From: Candidatus Desulfofervidaceae bacterium
Lineage (GTDB): Bacteria; Desulfobacterota; Desulfofervidia; Desulfofervidales; Desulfofervidaceae
Direction: 5' to 3'
DNA: 64,000 nt
NCBI GenBank assembly: GCA_027064585.1
Contig: JAMOPI010000031.1
Location: forward strand, 1 to 64,000
The position numbers and the translations under genes were made by a program. The notes under the pieces are model-generated. The model was not told where the DNA came from, searched no databases, and worked only from the letters and a program-made list of their open reading frames with translations. Every line of letters begins with the position of its first letter. Position 1 is the first letter of the stretch. This document shows positions 20,694 to 39,449 of the stretch, piece by piece.

Positions 20694-21251
20694 AACAAAA
20701 AAAGCTCTAAAGTAAAGCAAACTGTTTTACCATTTATTTTAGGGACTACTCAGGAAATTATCACTCCAAGAGCAGGTTTAGTTTTATTTGGGGAGTTTAT
20801 CTATGGAATAAAGCTTGATCAAAGGGCAGATAAATATCTGCTTCTGCCTAAAAGCGGCAGAGGATATAAGCCTAAAGCATTTATTCTACGGCGCTTAGGC
20901 AAAAAATTTCCAGATGGAGTTAGGAGAAAGGGCCTGAGCCTTATTAGTGACAATGGTTCACAACCAACTTCAAGATCATTTATGGGAAAGATGGCCATTT
21001 TAGGGATTGAGCAGATATTTACAAGTTATGATAATCCTAAAGGAAATGCAGAAACGCAACGGATGATACGGACGATAAAGGAAGAAGTTATTTGGCAGCA
21101 TGGGTTTGCAAGCTTAACAGAAGCAAGGGAAATTATAGGGAATTGGATTGAGAAGTATAACCGTGGCTATGTGCATTCGGCCTTGGGTTATTTAAGCCCA
21201 CTTGCATTTGAACAGAAGTTTTATCAAAATTATCACCAGGAGGCTGCTTAA
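20694..21251 (+). pseudogene. Chimeric transposase frame: IS1380 N-terminus joined to IS3 OrfB C-terminus
   Basis: One uninterrupted frame runs from 20694 to the TAA at 21251 but has no good start codon. Codons up to about 20885 read ITPRAGLVLFGEF and PKSGRGYKPKAF, typical of the N-terminus of DDE group 1 (IS1380) transposases. From about 20890 it reads KFPDGVRRKGLSLISDNGS, then FTSYDNPKGNAETQR and YVHSALGYLSP, the C-terminal third of an IS3-family integrase-type transposase with its second Asp and the catalytic Glu region. The join is in frame. It is not expected to be an active enzyme because both halves lack essential parts. Confidence 0.75.
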
Positions 21252-28107: not shown

Positions 28108-28183
28108 TCCCCGGTAGCTCAATCGGCAGAGCGGGTGGCTGTTAACCACTAGGTTGCTGGTTCGAGTCCGGCCCGGGGAGCCA
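28108..28183 (+). tRNA. tRNA-Asn (GTT)
   Basis: A complete cloverleaf: acceptor TCCCCGG pairs with CCGGGGA, then discriminator G and an encoded CCA (28181-28183). D arm AGCTCAATCGGCAGAGC, anticodon stem GTGG/CCAC with loop CTGTTAA (anticodon GTT at 28141-28143), and T loop TTCGAGT are all present. Its 3' end forms the left attachment site of the integrative element that follows, and integration leaves the mature tRNA intact. Confidence 0.97.
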
Positions 28184-28548
28184 TTTTGATGGCTGTTTCA
28201 AACTCATTCAAAGTATCCTTCCGACTTGTCCGCACAAGGAAAAAGGCAGGAAAAATAAAAATCTCTCTTTTTCCTATTCTGGATTGATGATAATGAAGCC
28301 CACCCGCACCCACCCTGAAAAGGAAAAATTTTTGAAAAATGGACTTGACTTTTTGTTTTTCTTTGCTACATATTATTATGTGATGTTAAACGATGATAAA
28401 CTTTGGCAGGCTCAAAAGGAGTTGAAACTATGATGGAAGGTTTCTCTGAAATAATGACCCTTGAGGAAACCGCAAAATATTTAAAAATAGGAAAATTTAC
28501 TCTTTATAAAATGGCGAGGGAAGGAAAAATTCCTGCTGTGGAGATCAA
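28175..28548 (+). repeat. Inverted repeat A, left arm (includes attL core)
   Basis: This 374-base segment returns in inverted orientation at 32948-33319, about 95% or more identical by eye over the first 270 bases. It holds the attachment core, an old recombinase tail (ILMAVSNSFKVSF ... SLFPILD, stop near 28287), a promoter-like TTGACT at about 28344 and the first part of the excisionase gene. Confidence 0.85.
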
Positions 28549-28684
28549 GTCTAAAAACACGAAAAGCAGGGATGTGTCTTATATTCAGAAACTTTCAGAA
28601 CATAATAGCTCAAAAGAAGTTTTTACTCATGTCAGCACAAAAGATCTTTCTGCAATAAAAAAAACTCACTTGACAGCCTTTTAG
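28430..28684 (+). pseudogene. Excisionase N-terminus fused to a dead tyrosine-recombinase tail
   Basis: Starting at the ATG at 28430 (AAGGAG upstream), the first 40 residues are an excisionase/MerR-type winged helix (IMTLEETAKYLKIGK, ALYKMAREGKIPAV), nearly identical to the intact copy at 32870-33064. After about 28548 the sequence changes to DVSYIQKLSEHNSS and FTHVSTKDLSAIK. That matches the C-terminal end of tyrosine recombinases (DIRYIQELLGH, YTHVS), with the catalytic Tyr changed to Phe. A neighbouring frame restores the usual ending (LLAGDET, stop near 28700). So the frame joins two unrelated relics. Confidence 0.75.
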
Positions 28685-28835
28685 CAGGGGATGAGACATG
28701 AATAAAAGAATAAAAGATAGTGGTCGTATAGAAGGATGTATATACGAACAGTTTGTATATTTCTCCAAATCAGGAGTATATCCGAATAGTTCAGGTATGA
28801 ATAAGGTATGCGACATTGTGCAGGAGGTTCCATAG

Positions 28836-29999
28836 ATGATAAAGCTAGAATATAATGGAAAAAAGTCAGAAAGAGAAATTCTGAATAAACCAATTAAAGG
28901 ATATACTTTAAAGGAAATAAGATCTTATGGTAATTCAAGATTAGATGGATGGAAAAATATGTTAATATTTGGGGACAATTTTATTGCACTGAAGTTATTA
29001 CTTAATAATCCTCAGGTTAGAGGAAAAGTGCGACTGATATATATAGATCCACCGTTCTCTACAAATCAAGTATTTAAAGCAGGAAACAATAGAACAGCAA
29101 CCATTAGCAGAAGTGAGGATGATTTGATTGCTTATAAAGATACTTTAAGTGGTGCTGAATATTTGGAATTTCTTAGAGAACGATTGATTTTATTAAAAGA
29201 AATACTTGCGGATGATGGATCAATTTATCTTCATATTGATTGCAAAATAGGGCATTATGTAAAAATAATAATGGATGAAATTTTTGGTCCTGAAAGATTT
29301 ATAAATGACATTACAAGGATTAAATGTAATCCAAAAAATTTTGAAAGAAAAGCCTACGGAAATATTAAAGATATGATATTGTTTTATTCTAAAACCTCTA
29401 AATATGTTTGGAATGATCCTAGGGAGGAACTTACTGAAGAAGACATAAAGAGACTTTTTCCTAAAATTGATAGTAATGGAAGAAGGTATACCACAACTCC
29501 ACTTCATGCTCCCGGAGAAACAAAAAATGGGCCTACAGGGCAACCTTGGAGAGGAATAAAGCCACCAAAAGGAAGGCATTGGAGATATCCTCCAGAAGAG
29601 TTAGAACGACTAGATAAAATGGGATTAATTGAGTGGTCATCAACAGGGAATCCACGTAAAAAAATTTATGCAGATAAGGTATTAGCAAAAGGGAAAAAAA
29701 GACAGGATGTATGGGAATTCAAAGATCCTCCATACCCTACATATCCAACAGAAAAAAATTTGAAGATGCTTAAAACAATAATCGAAGCATCATCAAAACC
29801 AGACGACATAGTATTAGATTGTTTTGTCGGCTCTGGAACTACCTTAATAGCCGCAGAGGAAACTGGACGTAGATGGATAGGGATAGATAATTCTAAAATA
29901 GCTATTGAAACGTGTCAAAAAAGAATCGATAAAATAAAACATCATTCTGCCTATACTTTGTTTGAAGTAGTCAAAAATGGAGGTGTTGAAGATGAATGA
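28836..29999 (+). CDS. Site-specific DNA methyltransferase (N6-adenine or N4-cytosine, beta class)
   Basis: A 387-residue methyltransferase. The catalytic motif IV (IYIDPPFSTNQ, about residue 70) comes first and the SAM-binding motif I (VLDCFVGSGTTLIAA, about 330) last, which is the beta-class order. A variable target-recognition region fills the middle (about 170-310). AGGAGG lies nine bases before the ATG. Its stop overlaps the start of the downstream nuclease gene, the usual sign of a type II restriction-modification pair. The recognition sequence cannot be deduced. Confidence 0.92.
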   Translation: MIKLEYNGKKSEREILNKPIKGYTLKEIRSYGNSRLDGWKNMLIFGDNFIALKLLLNNPQVRGKVRLIYIDPPFSTNQVFKAGNNRTATISRSEDDLIAYKDTLSGAEYLEFLRERLILLKEILADDGSIYLHIDCKIGHYVKIIMDEIFGPERFINDITRIKCNPKNFERKAYGNIKDMILFYSKTSKYVWNDPREELTEEDIKRLFPKIDSNGRRYTTTPLHAPGETKNGPTGQPWRGIKPPKGRHWRYPPEELERLDKMGLIEWSSTGNPRKKIYADKVLAKGKKRQDVWEFKDPPYPTYPTEKNLKMLKTIIEASSKPDDIVLDCFVGSGTTLIAAEETGRRWIGIDNSKIAIETCQKRIDKIKHHSAYTLFEVVKNGGVEDE

Positions 30000-30765
30000 G
30001 TGGATTCGAAGAAGCATAGAAATCGCAAATGCACCTGGATACTTAGACAATTTATTGAAGGTGTATCCTGTGACTCAAGAGACCGAAAGGTATATACCTA
30101 GTGAAATAAAGGAAGACTTAAGAGAACTTTTTTACGGTGAAGACGACTATGCACTTATTAAGAAGCTTCTAGAACTGCCTAAATTTCCCATTAAAGACCC
30201 ATATGTAGCTTTTCTACGTAAACGCGAGATATTCTTGGAGTATAATCCGCGTACTGTCCAGAGACTAGCAGAACGTATTCGCTCTATGGGCTATGAAAAT
30301 ATGATAAAGGCTATTGAAGAACCTAAAGAATTCAATAGGCAAATAGGTACCTTGTTTAAAAGGTGGTTGAGAACACTGGGATATCCCTTCTTAAATGATG
30401 AAGTTTTTGTATCTTCACATGACATATCATTTTTGGAAGGCAGTGAAAACCATTTGTTAAACTTTGCCAATAGTTATCTTGGATGTAACCTGAATAAAGG
30501 TCCCGATTTTATAGCAAAAGTTGGAGATGTATATATTATCGGTGAGGCGAAATTTTTAACAGATTACGGAGGACACCAAAATGCCCAATTTGAGGATGCC
30601 TTAAGACTATTAAGAGGGTCTGAAGGCAATGCTTTGAGAGTTGCCGTGCTTGATGGTGTGGTCTGGATAAAAGATGGCACGAAAATGTATAGAACAGTTT
30701 GTGGATTAGAAAAACCTGCATTTACGGCACTTTTATTGAGAGACTTTTTAGAAAGCTTGGGGTAA
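29992..30765 (+). CDS. Type II restriction endonuclease (PD-(D/E)XK)
   Basis: A 257-residue protein with a helical N-terminal half and a nuclease core: NKGPDFIAKVGD then VYIIGEAKFL (about residues 165-187) gives the P-D ... E-A-K arrangement of metal-dependent restriction enzymes. I choose the ATG at 29992 because GGAGGTG sits six bases upstream; it overlaps the methyltransferase stop by eight bases. The pairing supports a restriction role. The target is presumably the one modified by the neighbouring methyltransferase. Confidence 0.8.
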   Translation: MNEWIRRSIEIANAPGYLDNLLKVYPVTQETERYIPSEIKEDLRELFYGEDDYALIKKLLELPKFPIKDPYVAFLRKREIFLEYNPRTVQRLAERIRSMGYENMIKAIEEPKEFNRQIGTLFKRWLRTLGYPFLNDEVFVSSHDISFLEGSENHLLNFANSYLGCNLNKGPDFIAKVGDVYIIGEAKFLTDYGGHQNAQFEDALRLLRGSEGNALRVAVLDGVVWIKDGTKMYRTVCGLEKPAFTALLLRDFLESLG

Positions 30766-30907
30766 TAAAGATGAATTACAATTCAACATTGCACAACACA
30801 CAACAAGTAGGTATCTGGCTTTGGCTTACGCCTTCGCCCAAATTCAGCCTACGGATAGACTTCAGATGCCAGCTCCAGATGAATGCTTTATAGTGAGAGG
30901 ATGAAAA

Positions 30908-32689
30908 GTGGCTGAAAATACAAAAGAAATAAGAAGATTTTTGAAAGAGTTAGATATAGTATCAGAACAAATCTCAGAACATAACGTCTCTGAAAAAATT
31001 AGGAGTTTCATTAAGGAAAATTTTAGTAAAAATCCACCAGATGTTTTAATTTGGGAACAAATGGCTTTTGATTTTACCGAAAATTATCCGGATGACAAAT
31101 CAGGATGGGGTACTTATTTTGGACCTATGTTTGTTTTTCCTAACGAAGAAGGTAAAATGGTTGAATACCCAAGTATTCAAAAAATAACTCCTGATATTAT
31201 TTCTTATTGGGAAAAACGTGCTAAAGAATCTGAAAATCCTATCCTAAAAGCGAGATACTCCAATTTGGTTTGGGATTTTTCAGAAAAGGTGAAAGGAGAA
31301 AAACCTCATTATACAATTGCTCAAGTTTTTATAGATTCTGTCGTGGAAATAGCTGAAAAAGATTTGCATAAATATAGCGTTGATGTGATAAAAAAGTTAG
31401 GACGGGCTTTATCTATTGCATTAAGTACCAACGACAAACAACGAATAAATAAATTAGCGGATACAATAATCGTTTATGAAAGAAAGATCGCAGAAGATGA
31501 TAAACCGGGCTTGTGGGGCTTTTCATACGAGTTACTTGTCAAAAATAAAAAAGTATCATTAAGTAAAGATAAAAAGCATATTATCCTCAACGATCTGGAA
31601 AGAAGATTTGAACGCTTATTAAAAGGCAATGACCATTGGGCTGCTAAAAGAGCTGCGGTTTTACTGGTGGACTATTATTCCAGACTTGGAAATAAAGAGA
31701 AAACAAAGGAAATACTGCTCAAACTTGGTAAAATGATTCAAAAGCAAGCAGAACAAGCCTCACCTCTTGTTGCAAGTGCATGGTTAGAAGAACTATATCA
31801 TCTCTATTTACAATATGGTATGAAGGATGAGGCAGATAGAATTTCAAATAAAATCAGAGAATTAGGCGAAGAAGCCAAATCTGAGCTCAAAGAAATCAAG
31901 GCTTCCATAGAAATTCCTAAGGATAAACTTGAGAAATATACTAAATGGTTAACTGATGGTGATCTTGATACTGTTCTAACAAAGATTGCTGTAAATTACA
32001 TCCCAAAAAAAGATGAAGTTACAAAACAAATACAAGATCTTTCTAAAAAAGCACCTATTTCATTTCTATTTACTCACAAAATTATGGACGCCGAAGGACG
32101 CCCTATAGCGACAGTAGGTTCATTGGAAGATGATATTGAGGGACATATAGTTCTCCAAATTTCACAAAATATGCAAATTAGTTCCTTCTTTTTGAGGGAA
32201 ACTTTAAATGCTCTAATAGATAAATTTAATTTAACTGTCAAAGAAATAGTAAATTATCTCTATAAATCACCTATCTTTGATAAAAGAAGAAAAGAACTTC
32301 TTATCAGAGGCATAGAATCTTATCTAAATAGAGATTTTTTAGTTTCATTGCATATATTAATTCCTCAGATTGAGGCAATCATTAGAAATCTAGCTGAAAA
32401 AATAGGAATTCCTATTTTAAAATCTTCTCGTTCTGGAGGCTTTTTCTACCGAACACTTGACGAATTATTACGAGAAGAGGGAATTATAAGTGTGTTAGGT
32501 GAAGATATGTGCCTTTATTTTAGAGTTTTATTAACAGATCCACGGGGATGGAATATACGTAATGATGTATGTCATGGTATAAGTGGGCCTGAAAATTTTA
32601 ATCAAATGGTCGCTGATAGGATATTTCATGTACTCTTATGTTTAGCTCTGGTAAAAGAAAGGAGGAAGAAGAATGATTTCAAGCATTGA
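30908..32689 (+). CDS. DUF4209 HEPN-type protein next to the restriction system
   Basis: A 593-residue, mostly helical soluble protein. Near the C-terminus (about residue 560) it has RNDVCHG, which is exactly the RNxxxHG motif that defines DUF4209 and also fits the Rx4H RNase motif of HEPN domains. A preceding stretch (IPQIEAIIRNLAEKIGI) is the usual DUF4209 approach to it. The N-terminal 350 residues look like helical repeats. Translation starts at a GTG (30908) after GAGAGG. It follows the restriction gene by 142 bases, so it is plausibly part of the same defence cargo, perhaps a suicide RNase; that function is inferred only from the motif and the setting. Confidence 0.75.
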   Translation: MAENTKEIRRFLKELDIVSEQISEHNVSEKIRSFIKENFSKNPPDVLIWEQMAFDFTENYPDDKSGWGTYFGPMFVFPNEEGKMVEYPSIQKITPDIISYWEKRAKESENPILKARYSNLVWDFSEKVKGEKPHYTIAQVFIDSVVEIAEKDLHKYSVDVIKKLGRALSIALSTNDKQRINKLADTIIVYERKIAEDDKPGLWGFSYELLVKNKKVSLSKDKKHIILNDLERRFERLLKGNDHWAAKRAAVLLVDYYSRLGNKEKTKEILLKLGKMIQKQAEQASPLVASAWLEELYHLYLQYGMKDEADRISNKIRELGEEAKSELKEIKASIEIPKDKLEKYTKWLTDGDLDTVLTKIAVNYIPKKDEVTKQIQDLSKKAPISFLFTHKIMDAEGRPIATVGSLEDDIEGHIVLQISQNMQISSFFLRETLNALIDKFNLTVKEIVNYLYKSPIFDKRRKELLIRGIESYLNRDFLVSLHILIPQIEAIIRNLAEKIGIPILKSSRSGGFFYRTLDELLREEGIISVLGEDMCLYFRVLLTDPRGWNIRNDVCHGISGPENFNQMVADRIFHVLLCLALVKERRKKNDFKH

Positions 32690-32741
32690 ACTAACAGTGG
32701 GCATACGGCTAAGGTGCGCCGCACCTCTGCCTAAATTAGAC

Positions 32742-32838
32742 AAAGCCGAATTTTGTATGTCCACAAACTTAAATAATAGAGAAGCCTGCATCTTCATACA
32801 TACCAAATAGTTTCCAACCCTCAAACTTTCGGCTTTTT
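32742..32838 (+). terminator. Extended hairpin after the DUF4209 gene
   Basis: AAAGCCGA (32742-32749) pairs with TCGGCTTT (32829-32836), with GTATG/CATAC pairing inside, and the 3' arm runs on into TT. A second smaller hairpin, GGTGCGCCGCACC, lies at 32713-32725. Both are placed to stop transcription of the cargo genes. Confidence 0.45.
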
Positions 32839-32869
32839 AAGACTTAAGATAAGAAAGAGAGAAATAAAT

Positions 32870-33064
32870 TTATTTTCCTTTAGTAGTGTTTCTTACTTCC
32901 TGCCACCACTTGTCAATTTCATCTTTTCTAAATCTCCATTGATTAGCAATTTTCACGGCGGGTATTTTGCCTTCCCTTGCCATTTTATAAAGAGTAGATT
33001 TTCCTATTTTTAAATATTTTGCGGTCTCCTCAAGGGTCATTATTTCAGAGAAACCTTCCATCAT
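32870..33064 (-). CDS. Excisionase-family DNA-binding protein, intact copy
   Basis: A 64-residue winged-helix protein of the excisionase/MerR-like family (MTLEETAKYLKIGKSTLY, AREGKIPAVKI, WRFRKDEIDKWW). AAGGAG lies eight bases before the ATG at 33064. Proteins like this direct recombinases toward excision. It stands in the inverted segment, opposite in orientation to the recombinase, and is the complete version of the gene that is broken at 28430. Confidence 0.88.
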   Translation of the reverse strand: MMEGFSEIMTLEETAKYLKIGKSTLYKMAREGKIPAVKIANQWRFRKDEIDKWWQEVRNTTKGK

Positions 33065-33319
33065 AGTTTCAACTCCTTTTGAGACTGCCAAAGTTTATCA
33101 TCGTTTAACATCACATAATAATATGTAGCAAAGAAAAACAAAAAGTCAAGTCCATTTTTCAAAAATTTTTCCTTTTCAGGGTGGGTGCGGGTGGGCTTCA
33201 TTATCATCAATCCACAATAGGAAAAAGAGAGAGTTTTATTTTTCCTGCTTTCCTCCTTGTGCGGACGAGTCGGAAGGATACTTTGAATGAGTTTGAAACA
33301 GCCATCAAAATGGCTCCCC
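32948..33319 (-). repeat. Inverted repeat A, right arm
   Basis: Inverted counterpart of 28175-28548. With the left arm it brackets the methyltransferase, nuclease and DUF4209 genes. Its outer end contains the attachment core as ATGGCTCCCC (33310-33319). Confidence 0.85.
33310..33319 (-). repeat. Attachment core, attP-like junction (inverted)
   Basis: Third copy of GGGGAGCCAT in the element. Its left flank equals that of attR (36781-36789) and its right flank equals that of attL (28185 onward), which is what a circular element or a tandem junction would have. Confidence 0.85.
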
Positions 33320-33620
33320 TTATTGACGGCTCTTTCAAAATCTGGACAGGCTCCTGATGGGCAAGTTCTGGAAACTCAAGAAATTCAATATCTACCTTAT
33401 CATTGAAAATTTTTACCTCTTTTATAAAAAGCCTTGCCAGTGCCTGCCTTTCCTTTGGTTCAAGTGAAGGATAAACCTTATAAAATCCTTCAAATCCTTT
33501 CTTTATTATTTCAAAATCAATGACCGTGCTTTCCTTTCTCCTTATTTTAAGCCTTATTTCTTCAAGTTTTTTCTCTAATTCTTCCTTTTCCTTTGACCGC
33601 TTATTGACTTCTTCCCTTAC
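33320..33620 (-). repeat. Inverted repeat B, inner arm
   Basis: About 300 bases that match 36489-36789 in inverted orientation with few differences; the match ends abruptly at 33620/36489. Confidence 0.85.
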
Positions 33621-33703
33621 GCACTACCTTTGGGTTTGTAATTACAATATGGGGTCATTTTGTAAATCACAAAACTAAGCCTTAATTTTGGTGAAAATAA
33701 CAT

Positions 33704-33732
33704 TTGACAAATGCATCTTTTTAGAGTATATT
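33704..33732 (+). promoter_or_regulatory. Promoter of the vapB-like cassette and recombinase
   Basis: TTGACA (33704-33709) and TATATT (33727-33732) are 17 bases apart, close to consensus. No other promoter is visible before the recombinase, whose gene overlaps the cassette. Confidence 0.75.
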
Positions 33733-33774
33733 TATAGTGTTATGAAAGGACGAAATTCTAAGAGGACGGAAAAC

Positions 33775-33978
33775 ATGAACACCAAAAAGAACATTTTGAG
33801 ATTCACGGTTTCAATGGATAAAGACTTGCTTGATGAGTTATTGAGAGTTACTGGACAGAAAAAGAAAAGCAGAGCCGTTAATGCTGCTTGCTGGGAGTTT
33901 GTAAAAATGAAACAAAAGGAAATTTTATTAACACTTAAAGGAAGTATAAATTTGAGGAGTAATGCCAATGATAGATGA
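33775..33978 (+). CDS. VapB-like antitoxin (ribbon-helix-helix)
   Basis: A 67-residue protein with a VapB layout: a short N-terminal strand (ILRFTVSMDKDLL), then LLRVTGQKKKSRAVNAA and a C-terminal toxin-binding tail (EILLTLKGSINLR). I choose the ATG at 33775 because GAGGACGG precedes it; an upstream ATG at 33742 would begin almost at the transcription start. Its end overlaps the start of the 308-aa gene by 17 bases. VapB normally binds a PIN toxin encoded next door; here an unrelated gene lies between. Confidence 0.75.
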   Translation: MNTKKNILRFTVSMDKDLLDELLRVTGQKKKSRAVNAACWEFVKMKQKEILLTLKGSINLRSNANDR

Positions 33979-34888
33979 GCAAAGTTTAATAAGATGGCTT
34001 AAAGGAGCAGATGAAATATTTGAAGCTTTAGAAGGTAGAGGAGATGCTTATAATCTTTGCAGAAGATGGGTAGAAGAATGGTTTAGCTGTGGAAAATTCA
34101 GTATTACTGATGAAGATAGAAATTTTTTAAAAGAGTTTGAATTACTGATATTCAATGAAAGAGTAAAATCAAAGATAGAAAATAATTTAGCCCAATTAAA
34201 AGAAAAATTAGAGAACCATACAGAAGATATTGCCTTTGCATTCTCTTTGTACTTGATTTCATGGAATATTAGAAGATTTGAAACTTACTTTGAGAGAAAC
34301 ACTGATTTTAGCTTTGAAGATTTCTTTGTTTCTTTAAGTGAGGTGTTTGATAAAACTTTTCTAAATAATGTGAAGGAATTAAGAAAACTACATCTTTTTA
34401 AAAATGAGGTAAAAGATGAATTAATTGCCGATATTTATAAAAAATTGGAAGAAAAAATAAAACAAATAGTCTCTACTCAAAATGAACCTGTAGCTACAAT
34501 AAAAATTATGCATATTATAGCTCCTTATTATATTCCTTTACTTGATAATCCAATTGCCAAAGCTTTAAAAAGAGAAAAACTGTGCGATTTTTTTAATTTT
34601 ATTCCACCTTCACGAGATTTTTGGAAAAACTTAAAGAGATTGAAAAATGGTGAATTGAAGTTATACGAAATAAAGAAAATTGTTAAAGGAATGCATGATG
34701 ATCTTGAAAGCGTAAAACTGGATATAGAAGCATTTTTAAACTACATTAAATGGATAAGGAAAGAATTTAATAAGTTTAAAGATGTGATCTACAAGATAGA
34801 AAAAGACACGCAGAAAAGTTTTTTAAAACTTCTGGATCAGGCCTTCTACATAAGGTACTCAATTGATATAGGGAGACGATTAAAATGA
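33962..34888 (+). CDS. Unknown 308-aa protein between VapB-like and PIN-like genes
   Basis: I do not recognise the family with confidence. The protein is soluble, helical and acidic-basic, with coiled-coil-like stretches near 70-95 and 240-290. Near residue 183 it has IKIMHIIAPYYIPLLDNPIA, which resembles the H-x3-P-x3-P-x2-D-x2-I block of several uncharacterised proteins. GAGG sits eight bases before the ATG (33962). It overlaps vapB at one end and the PIN gene at the other (ATGA, 34885-34888), so the four genes are translationally coupled. A third component of a toxin-antitoxin module is one reading. Confidence 0.6.
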   Translation: MPMIDEQSLIRWLKGADEIFEALEGRGDAYNLCRRWVEEWFSCGKFSITDEDRNFLKEFELLIFNERVKSKIENNLAQLKEKLENHTEDIAFAFSLYLISWNIRRFETYFERNTDFSFEDFFVSLSEVFDKTFLNNVKELRKLHLFKNEVKDELIADIYKKLEEKIKQIVSTQNEPVATIKIMHIIAPYYIPLLDNPIAKALKREKLCDFFNFIPPSRDFWKNLKRLKNGELKLYEIKKIVKGMHDDLESVKLDIEAFLNYIKWIRKEFNKFKDVIYKIEKDTQKSFLKLLDQAFYIRYSIDIGRRLK

Positions 34889-35268
34889 AGGGGATAATGG
34901 TAGAGAGTTTAATTTGGAAGGAATATTTGGAAAAGGGAAATACAAGAGAGGCTGAAATTTTAGAGAAGTTGATTAAAGGAGATAAGGTTATAATTTGCGG
35001 TTATACCCTTGCCGAAATTCTGAAAGATATAAAAGACAGAGAAACTTTTGAGAAACTTTTAAAGGGTTTTCTTGCTTTACCTTATGTGGAGATAGAGAAA
35101 GAAGACTGGATAAAAGCAAGTGAACTTGTTTTTGAGTTTGAAGGTTTGTCTATTGAGTTGGGTTTACTTTGTGCTTTAAGCCAGAGAAAAAACTTAAAAA
35201 TCTTGACCAAAAATAAACAGATTAAAAAGATTAAAAGTGTAAAACTCTATGAAGATGAAAAAGAATAA
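34885..35268 (+). CDS. PIN-domain (VapC-like) protein with degraded active site
   Basis: A 127-residue protein with the PIN layout: MVESLIWKEYL, then GYTLAEIL, LSIELGLLCAL and KILTKNKQIKKI. In active VapC toxins these positions read DTSVWI, E-x-x, D-x-x-IA and LTxDxDF. Here the first Asp is Glu, the third Asp is Glu or Leu, and the LTxD Asp is Asn; only the central Glu is clearly kept. Loss of three metal ligands predicts no nuclease activity. It may act as a binding partner for the neighbouring proteins. Its 3' end overlaps the recombinase start by 20 bases. Confidence 0.65.
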   Translation: MKGIMVESLIWKEYLEKGNTREAEILEKLIKGDKVIICGYTLAEILKDIKDRETFEKLLKGFLALPYVEIEKEDWIKASELVFEFEGLSIELGLLCALSQRKNLKILTKNKQIKKIKSVKLYEDEKE

Positions 35269-36488
35269 GAAAAAAGAAGTTGTCAGGTGTGCGGTCTATA
35301 CAAGAGTATCAACGGAGAATCAGGCTGAAAAGGATTACAGTTCTCTTGAATCCCAGAAAGAGCATATTTTGAATTTTATAAAAAGCCGAAGGTTTGAGGG
35401 CTGGGAACTTTTTGGTATTTATGAAGATGCGGGCTTCTCCGCCGCTTCCTTAGAAAGACCAGAACTTCAAAGAATGTTAAGAGATATAAGAAAGGGTTTA
35501 ATTGATGTTGTCCTTGTTTATAAAATTAACCGATTAACACGGAGCCACTATGAAGGATTTTTATTATCTGATTGAATTTTTTGACAAATACAATGTTGAG
35601 CTTGTTGCTGTAACCCAGAAGTTTGATACCACCAACGCAATGAGAAGACTTTTAAGAAGCATAATGCTTGACTTTGCACAGTTTGAAAGAGAGATGACAG
35701 CCGAACGAACAAGAGACAAAATGAAGGCAAGAGCCAAGAAAGGACTATGGAACGGTGGTTGTTTGCCTTTAGGTTATGACTAGGATCCAGAAAGCAAAAA
35801 ACTTATCATCAATACAAAAGAGGCTAAAATTGTTAAGTTTATTTTTGAGACTTACCTAAAGGAAGGTTCTATCTCCAAGGTTGTTAAGGCACTAAATAAG
35901 AAAAGGTATAAAACAAAGAACGGAAATGATTTTATTTATACCAGCACAAGGCACATCTTGGAAAACCCTATCTATGCAGGAAAAATAAAATATAGTGGTG
36001 AAATCTATCAAGGAAACCATGAGGCTATAATTGACGAGAGGATTTTTGAAGAAGTCCAGAGAATGCTTAACCGAAATAAAAAAGAATGCAAATCAATTAA
36101 ACAGAACAAATATGATTTTCTTTTAAGAGGACTTTTAAAGTGTGGTTATTGTGGATCAAATTTAACCACTCATTACACCCTTAAAAACGGAGACAAATTC
36201 TTTTATTACAAATGCACAAGGATACAGCACAGAGATAAAACAGCCTGTCTATCAAAACCTTTACCGGCAAGAGAGTTTGACAATGTGATTGTTGAATCAA
36301 TCGGTAATATGGCAAAAGATAATCGTTTACTTAAAAGAATTCTTGAAAGGTCAAACCGTGTTGTTTTAAATGAAATAGAGGAATTGAGAAAAGAGGAAAT
36401 TAAACTTGCAAAAGAGATTGAAAGAAAGAGTGAAGAAATAAGGAAACTCTTAAATTTATTCCTTCTTGATAAAAACCCGCCGATAGAG

Positions 36489-36789
36489 GTAAGGGAAGAA
36501 GTCAATAAGCGGTCAAAGGAAAAGGAAGAATTGGAGAAAAAACTTGAAGAAATAAGGCTTAAAATAAGAAGAAAGGAAAGCACGGTCATTGATTTTGAAA
36601 TAATAAAGAAAGGATTTGAAGGATTTTATAAGGTTTATCCTTCACTTGAACCAAAGGAAAGGCAGGCACTGGCAAGGCTTTTTATAAAAGAGGTAAAAAT
36701 TTTCAATGATAAGGTAGATATTGAATTTCTTGAGTTTCCAGAACTTGCCCATCAGGAGCCTGTCCAGATTTTGAAAGAGCCGTCAATTA
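36489..36789 (+). repeat. Inverted repeat B, outer arm
   Basis: The 3' part of the recombinase gene, present in inverted orientation at 33320-33620. It ends exactly at the attachment core. Confidence 0.85.
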
Positions 36790-36799
36790 GGGGAGCCAT
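36790..36799 (+). repeat. Attachment core, attR
   Basis: GGGGAGCCAT identical to the 3' end of tRNA-Asn at 28175-28184. A G-C rich hairpin (GGCCCC ... GGGGGCC, 36819-36840) lies just outside it, where the tRNA-Asn transcript would end if the element were absent. Confidence 0.8.
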
Positions 36800-36846
36800 A
36801 TGGAACGCTCACAAAAACCGGCCCCAGAAGAAAGGGGGCCGATATC

Positions 36847-37068
36847 TCATAACTCAAGTTTGATCTTTCCCACTTCTCCTCTCTGTTTGGTTTCTTTGCC
36901 GTAATAGACAATTCTTTTTATCAAAAGGTGAAGTAAGTCATATTTCTCTTCAGGTGTAAGGTGTTCAAATACATCTTTGAAATATTTGAAATTTGCCTTA
37001 AGGGTTTTAGCATTTAAACAGTTAATTCCTGCTTCATTTATTTTATTTATTTTAAATTCAATTTTTAC
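36847..37068 (-). pseudogene. C-terminal relic of a second, different serine recombinase
   Basis: On the minus strand the frame ending with TGA at 36849-36847 reads INEAGINCLNAKTL, FKYFKDVFEHLTPEEK and LLIKRIVYYGKET, then GEVGKIKLEL. This is the C-terminal end of a large serine recombinase (conserved LT-x-E-E-K ... LIKRI ... GKIKLEL). It is not a copy of the recombinase in the element. It is truncated upstream near 37068. It points to an earlier insertion at the same place. Confidence 0.7.
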
Positions 37069-38893: not shown

Positions 38894-39449
38894 TTTCAGA
38901 TCCGTAATTACCCTACAAGAAACCCGCAAGTGTGTTAAAACAATTTTAAAAAACACATGTTCACCTCAAAGATGAAAAACACACTCACGGGATAAGAACA
39001 AGAATTAAACTAAGACGAGCTATTTTGCATTTATTTTAGAAAAGACTTACGAAATTATCATTTCCTAAACAGGTTTAGTTTTATTTGGTGAGTTTGTTTA
39101 TGGACTAAGGCTTAATCAAAGAACAGATAAATATTTGCCTCCACCCAAAAGTGGTAGAGGATACAAACCGAAAGATCTTGTTTTACCCTTGTACTCATGG
39201 TAGGCAGTGTCCTGTCCCCTCTTTTGGAGATAGAGGTGTCCCCCAAATGGGGCATCTACAAATTGATTAATACTAAATCTGTTTCTCTTCATGGTTGTTC
39301 CCTTTAATCCCAATCCAAAAAATGGGGATCAATCCAGTTTTTAAGACTTGTCGTAAGAAATCTCTTATAGATAGAACTTCTACCTTTCTCTCTTAATTTG
39401 CCCTTACTAAAAATACCCTTATTCAAAAATCAATCGCGGATTTTGAAAA
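38894..39449. mobile_element. Second, more decayed IS1380-like relic
   Basis: The left end (38894-38915) is a worn version of the end seen at 20573. AACCCGCAAGTGTG (38923) and CACACTCACGGG (38984) are the leader hairpin. From about 39060 the N-terminus of the transposase can be read with lesions (GLVLFGEF, PKSGRGYKPKDLVLP). The coding part breaks off after 39192. Unassigned sequence follows, then the right end CAATCGCGGATTTTG (39431-39445). Most of the transposase is gone. It lies only 50 bases from the tRNA-Sec gene. Confidence 0.65.

Follow-up and report, generated by a model that had tools for sequence, protein, structure and literature searches.

A composite defence island at a tRNA-Asn gene contains an inverted attP-type joint that was probably inherited rather than made locally

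INTRODUCTION

Among the closest described systems are the ssrA islands of Dehalococcoides, whose recombinase DsiB is CcrB-like and is encoded by a gene that overlaps the attachment site, with a stop codon that depends on integration (PMC3146451). These islands target the 3' end of an RNA gene and are stacked in tandem, and for some of them, which lack autonomy, movement by accretion has been proposed (PMC3146451). The Streptomyces island PAISt has one internal and two flanking att sites; its internal site is a direct repeat, its recombinase is of the tyrosine type, and its excision is modular (PMC4057263). Stacked islands and internal att sites as such are already known (PMC3146451; PMC4057263).

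The current study deals with a stretch of 64,000 nucleotides from a Candidatus Desulfofervidaceae bacterium (GenBank assembly GCA_027064585.1, contig JAMOPI010000031.1, positions 1 to 64,000), which is referred to as the window. An earlier note on this DNA had described an attP-type junction in inverted orientation within an integrated element and had explained it by an inversion at this very locus. The follow-up analysis points to a composite defence island at tRNA-Asn whose inverted attP joint was, on balance, probably inherited in an old circulating module and not made locally.

RESULTS

Structure of the internal joint

The minus strand of positions 32949-33620 reads from the 3' end of a serine recombinase gene (int) through the core GGGGAGCCAT into the left (P') arm (Table 1). 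The inverted recombinase end is 97% identical to the end at attR, and the inverted P' arm is 96% identical to the attL end. An inverted-repeat search paired 28175-28545 with 32949-33319 for the P' arm (371 nt, 96%; E = 7.5e-173 in gapped BLAST) and 33300-33620 with 36489-36809 for the P arm (321 nt, 98%; E = 3.4e-158 in BLAST); in the gapped alignment, the P pair extends over 33310-33640 and 36470-36799 (97%), i.e., homology with the P arm reaches approximately position 33640. Both tracts stop at one and the same core (33310-33319, minus strand), as in the joint of a circle, with CCGTCAATAA on the P-arm side and TTTGATGGCTG on the P'-arm side. These flanks match the attP predicted from attL (28175) and attR (36790), namely, the pre-core sequence of attR and the post-core sequence of attL. 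According to a whole-genome search, copies of core and arms are limited to three places in the 1.92-Mb genome. Chance or unrelated repeats are excluded as a source of the inverted copies by E-values on the order of 1e-173 and 1e-158, and the two tracts meet exactly at the core.

The inverted circle-type joint proposed in the earlier note was thus confirmed by inverted-repeat search and gapped alignment, and the same holds for the 370-base inverted repeats (28175-28545 and 32949-33319) that bracket the restriction cargo. The extent given for the block, 32948-33620, was too short, because the block includes xis to 32870 and an int fragment at 32779-32839. On the minus strand, the order is int end, core, P' arm, xis, and int N-terminal fragment; the fragment after xis has also been kept in loci L026, L144, and L157. 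The excisionase had rightly been called intact (HTH_17 and TIGR01764 matches), and its gene overruns the left edge assigned to the junction. The integration target, tRNA-Asn, is also used in L025, L027, L133, L135, L136, L138, L143, L146, and L154.

Imperfect palindromes that look like attC sites are located exactly between cargo and int fragment in the window (32690-32776), in L144 (541-645), and in L157 (7060-7172), and that of L144 has the ends GCGGACATAC...GTATGTCCGCTGTTAGGC. Two of the three fold better than shuffled sequences (z = -2.9 and -3.3), and the third falls short (z = -1.6); the cargo may have entered as integron-like cassettes. Direct repeats of 164 nt (77%) are located on either side of the region, at 20726-20889 and 39023-39186, and the former copy is followed directly by a short ORF that resembles a transposase (20982-21251).

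Table 1. Features of the tRNA-Asn island in the window
Feature	Position	Strand	Evidence
tRNA-Asn (GTT), integration target; 3' end is the attB half of attL	28108..28183	+	ARAGORN
attL core (28175-28184), P' arm, and first 39 codons of HTH gene	28175..28540	+	96% to inverted copy
Decayed HTH::tyrosine-recombinase fusion with HTH head and C-terminal tail IQKLSEHNSSKEVFTHVSTKDLSAIK on either side of a large internal deletion, and conserved downstream region	28403..28818	+	BLASTP, DNA match
Cargo: N6/N4 DNA methyltransferase	28836-29999	+	Pfam N6_N4_Mtase 6.2e-47; PADLOC MTase_II
Cargo: Tsp45I-type restriction enzyme	29977-30765	+	Pfam Tsp45I 5.4e-78; PADLOC REase_II
Cargo: DUF4209 protein, candidate defence protein PDC-S39	30908..32689	+	Domain and defence-system searches
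Imperfect palindrome between cargo and int fragment, attC-like in look	32690..32776	.	DNA fold z = -2.9; similar in L144
Fragment F, serine recombinase N-terminus (int nt 131-191), 61 nt	32779..32839	-	90% to 35379-35439
Intact 64-aa HTH protein "xis" (HTH_17/excisionase family)	32870..33064	-	Pfam 6.3e-19; TIGR01764 7.7e-17
Inverted P' arm of internal attP joint	32954..33319	-	Inverted-repeat search, alignment
Third core GGGGAGCCAT, attP type	33310..33319	-	Alignment
Inverted P arm, last ~110 codons of serine recombinase	33310..33640	-	97% to 36470-36799
RHH gene (ribbon-helix-helix-like, inferred) and promoter region	33641..33978	+	Always diverging from inverted P arm
Variable gene, slot between RHH and PIN	33962..34888	+	Comparison of islands
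PIN-domain protein (VapC-like), conserved int neighbour	34885..35268	+	Pfam PIN 2.8e-5; NCBIfam VapC 1.1e-10, below curated cut-off
Serine recombinase gene, broken	35249..36863	+	Resolvase 2.8e-21; Zn_ribbon_recom 2.6e-11; Recombinase 1.4e-5
P arm and attR core (36790-36799)	36470..36799	+	Alignment

The left end of the island

The xis copy at attL, which the earlier note had taken for a broken excisionase, departs from xis after codon 39 and proved to be the 39-aa HTH head of a fusion with a tyrosine recombinase. By BLASTP, the window ORF at 28403-28684 aligns in two pieces, the HTH head and the C-terminal tail, to an intact 391-aa ORF of L136 (9316-10491), in which a tyrosine recombinase continues in frame from the P' arm and HTH head; L143 (318-1160) has the same arrangement. 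Intact relatives of the fusion match Pfam Phage_integrase (5.6e-47) and HTH_17. Past the deletion, the tail and downstream region of the fusion survive at 28580-28818; the DNA of this stretch matches L139 and L152, and that of 28580-28714 matches L091, at 71-74%. Random truncation of an excisionase is ruled out by the match to HTH::tyrosine-recombinase ORFs. Judged by its sequence, the attL end is therefore a decayed HTH::tyrosine-recombinase element and not a damaged small excisionase. The fusion, which is intact in L136 and decayed in the window, carries a HARP-like region and adjoins the tRNA-Asn attachment arm.

Recurrence of the junction and the block in other bacteria

A species-genome scan with the recombinase end as the query yielded seven loci. 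The stretch 33313-33953, comprising the inverted int end and the start of the RHH gene, is colinear at about 87-92% in G003, a genome of the same family (L005/L030/L137), and in L023 (WOR-3), L025 (Leptospiraceae, 998-kb contig), L027 (GBS-1, 687-kb contig), and L028 (a Microgenomates bin). The junction is also present in L026 (an Actinomycetota bin), where the whole block 32765-33944 is matched without interruption at 86%. The contigs of L026 and L028 are short and may have been binned under the wrong taxon, whereas L025 and L027 are situated on long ones. In all aligned loci (six besides the window), the breakpoint is the same and falls between ...TGTAATTACAAACC and CGCCGATAGAGGTAAGGG. Further family members occur in Aquificota, in the phylum of the window, and in WOR-3, and viral contigs yielded no relative. 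A complete island with both ends and the inverted joint was seen only in the window; the comparison contigs of L023, L026, L028, G003, and L144 end inside or near the arms.

The junction is common to separate assemblies at 8-13% divergence, which rules out an assembly error, or an event limited to this locus, as its source. That an assembly artefact joined two copies in opposite orientation is very improbable: the arms are indeed long repeats in which many contigs of the family end, but they differ by 3-4%, which is enough to separate them, the same joints were assembled independently in other data sets, in L026 without a break from one end of the block to the other, and the one-contig genome G002 also contains an inverted P' arm of a similar kind. 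The misassembly that the earlier note had considered is accordingly unlikely. Contamination by the window's element as the source of the junctions in other genomes is likewise unlikely in view of the 8-13% divergence.

The earlier note's inversion at this locus was not upheld, as the same junction between inverted int end and RHH gene, or the whole block, resides in islands of several phyla. The other case that the note had set against its own reading, a relative in which the block belongs to a separate element, applies in part: in relatives, the block is a regular component of the islands that they harbour. From these sequence comparisons, the inverted joint block is best described as a long-standing, inherited component of a mosaic family of islands.

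The RHH gene (33641-33978) had no Pfam match. Between the RHH and PIN genes, other islands hold ThsB-TIR or ApeA-like genes; the gene set of this slot differs by island (L023, 7737-8932; L025, 8476-9665; L027, 8478-9329; L026, 212-1119), with ThsB-TIR and ApeA-type defence in some of them. In G001, a genome of the same genus, this trpB-trpA-tRNA-Asn site (L146) is occupied by an unrelated island that retains no more than 122 nt of the P' arm. The trpB-trpA-tRNA-Asn site is a hotspot with turnover.

Kinship of the arms and rearranged forms

The P' arms of the window are 96.2% alike versus at most 92.2% to any other arm, and the P arms are 97.3% alike versus at most 96.5%. The positions at which the two P' arms differ are concentrated in 28227-28279 and 28497-28543, and the 188 bases from 28280 to 28467 contain a single mismatch. 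Taken together with the older junctions, the likeness of the arms would fit homogenisation between the inverted copies, by gene conversion or inversion, and a recent local duplication would give the same closest kinship. The paired arms are each other's nearest relatives and direct tandems are known in the family, as expected if tandem copies, or a second circle, had been present at this tRNA-Asn and a part had then been inverted in this lineage. We nevertheless regard such a local event as unlikely, because the RHH/inverted-int-end junction and the block of int fragment, xis, attP, and int end are already present in other lineages, and the inversion junctions are therefore older than the locus in the window.

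In the window, the recombinase end is placed at attR and the RHH end inside, whereas the RHH end is found at the outer core in L023, L025, L027, and L028; hence, both orientations of the segment bounded by the P arms exist. Across the other islands compared, only this int-side segment between the P arms, and not the cargo segment (28549-32947 in the window), was seen in both orientations. L025 and L027 have a split recombinase, with N-terminal nt 1-195 reversed and the C-terminal end at the core. This form may have arisen from a window-like island by a flip via the P arms and a subsequent deletion between direct copies of the int N-terminus, or alternatively by one inversion-deletion in a simpler ancestor.

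Accreted and tandem forms, for which the earlier note had suggested a comparison with related genomes, do occur in the family. G775 has a direct tandem with attL, attP joint, and attR in one direction. In G061, contig C18 represents the same locus without the L025 element, the P' arm and xis' leading directly into the next cargo; the downstream flank common to both G061 forms extends over 5.1 kb at 99.65%. These two cases establish that accretion happens in the family. L025 and L093 of G061 are one locus in two assembled forms within one bin, with and without a 5.3-kb stretch that holds the element, possibly a population mixture caught in one assembly. In the one-contig genome G002, 7.5 kb of cargo separate a tRNA-Asn attL from a reversed xis that retains a portion of the P' arm; this is the same bracket as around the restriction cargo of the window, but the rest of the joint is gone. 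As in an accreted island, an attP-type joint lies between the parts of the window island, but its orientation is inverted and not direct with respect to the outer att sites.

The recombinase and the crossover

By its domains (resolvase, recombinase, and zinc ribbon), the recombinase is a large serine type and CcrB/CcrC-like. Its best NCBIfam relatives are CcrB and CcrC, with a score of 76.9 versus a family cut-off of 900 bits. A frame change near 35570 and an in-frame stop near 35781 disrupt the gene, and a second related serine recombinase is absent from the genome of the window. The joint is therefore probably inert in cis here. No second small recombinase (CcrA/DsiA), and thus no ccrA/ccrB pair, was found among the ORFs of the island, which is why the island was not filed as an SCC or ssrA-GI member.

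The reading frame of int extends across both attR and the internal attP joint, and in L023, it is open as far as the contig end. Because the frame crosses the attachment site, the C-terminus of the recombinase is predicted to differ between the integrated and circular forms: as read from the sequence, the frame of the circle form would end ...EPSIRGAILMAVSNSF..., and the attR frame ends ...EPSIRGAIWNAHKNRPQKKGGRYLITQV.

Serine recombinases exchange two bases. Across the loci, P is constant through GGGGAG and P' from CAT, and variation on the chromosomal side leaves only GAG in common. Such a short crossover would be consistent with a 2-bp exchange; GAG would be more than a serine recombinase needs but falls short of the overlap of six to eight bases in tyrosine recombinases. 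Inversion driven by the integrase through a symmetric crossover was considered and rejected, since the site of exchange is confined to GAG, which contains no palindromic dinucleotide.

DISCUSSION

The history that we infer starts with an island family in which the gene of a CcrB-like serine recombinase runs into its own attachment site and the P' arm carries a small HTH gene, and whose members would stack at tRNA-Asn. In an ancestor, an ancient inversion, a reconstructed step, would have set the int end back-to-back with the RHH promoter. The resulting module (int fragment, xis, attP, int end/RHH, variable gene, PIN, int) would then have spread among hot-spring bacteria and, in the window, have been joined tail to tail with a second, decayed element at the same tRNA, consisting of the HTH::tyrosine-recombinase end and the Tsp45I restriction cargo. 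The joining agent was presumably accretion combined with homologous recombination through the shared arms. Thereafter, the inverted arms would have served as homology by which cargo is exchanged, segments are flipped, and parts are deleted. With its recombinase broken, the island is apparently frozen. In cis, its joint is probably a fossil, of which only homologous recombination, or a recombinase provided in trans, could still make use. The family is likely driven by accretion together with homologous rearrangement.

A functional role of the inverted joint was weighed as well. Excision between attL and attR would produce a circle with two inverted attP sites, and it is improbable that the inverted joint is a switch selected for this function; it is equally doubtful that integration via either attP yields the whole island in both orientations. 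The int-side segment does occur as two isomers, core and arms of the internal joint are intact, and so is the adjacent xis. However, the recombinase of the window is broken and has no second copy, the left ends in L025 and L027 are better explained by homologous recombination plus deletion than by alternate attP use, and no locus was seen with the full order of tRNA-Asn, xis, int fragment, and reversed cargo. We give little credence to the idea that the inverted attP has a working role in the design of these islands, with the circle inserting through either of two inverted attP sites or flipping via its arms; if it were, tRNA-adjacent cargo would be exchanged and defence modules shuffled between hot-spring phyla.

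The mosaic family of tRNA-Asn defence islands reaches several phyla in hot habitats, with arms, cargo, and recombinases being reshuffled. With the joint read as an inherited component, an internal inverted circle joint can be passed on as a stable island part. The naturally rearranged forms offer material for testing inversion versus accretion. The literature searched contained no inherited, inverted, full attP joint within a family of serine-recombinase islands.

With the Dehalococcoides ssrA islands (PMC3146451), the window shares a CcrB-like recombinase gene that overlaps the att site, the 3' end of an RNA gene as the target, and stacking; unlike them, it targets tRNA-Asn, a DsiA partner was not seen, and an RHH-PIN module is fused to its joint, which is inverted. 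SCC and ECC elements (CcrAB; PMC6222049) likewise rely on a serine recombinase and integrate at the 3' end of a conserved gene, but the window recombinase scores far below the family cut-offs, no ccrA/ccrB pair was found, and the target is a different one. In Streptomyces PAISt (PMC4057263), too, three att copies split the island into modules, whereas the internal site of the window is inverted and of the full attP type. Finally, as in the ICESt1-type accretion of ICEs and cis-mobilizable elements (cited in PMC3146451), related islands stack via shared arms; in contrast to the direct repeats of classical ICE accretion, the middle joint of the window is inverted, and the block has been inherited in that state.
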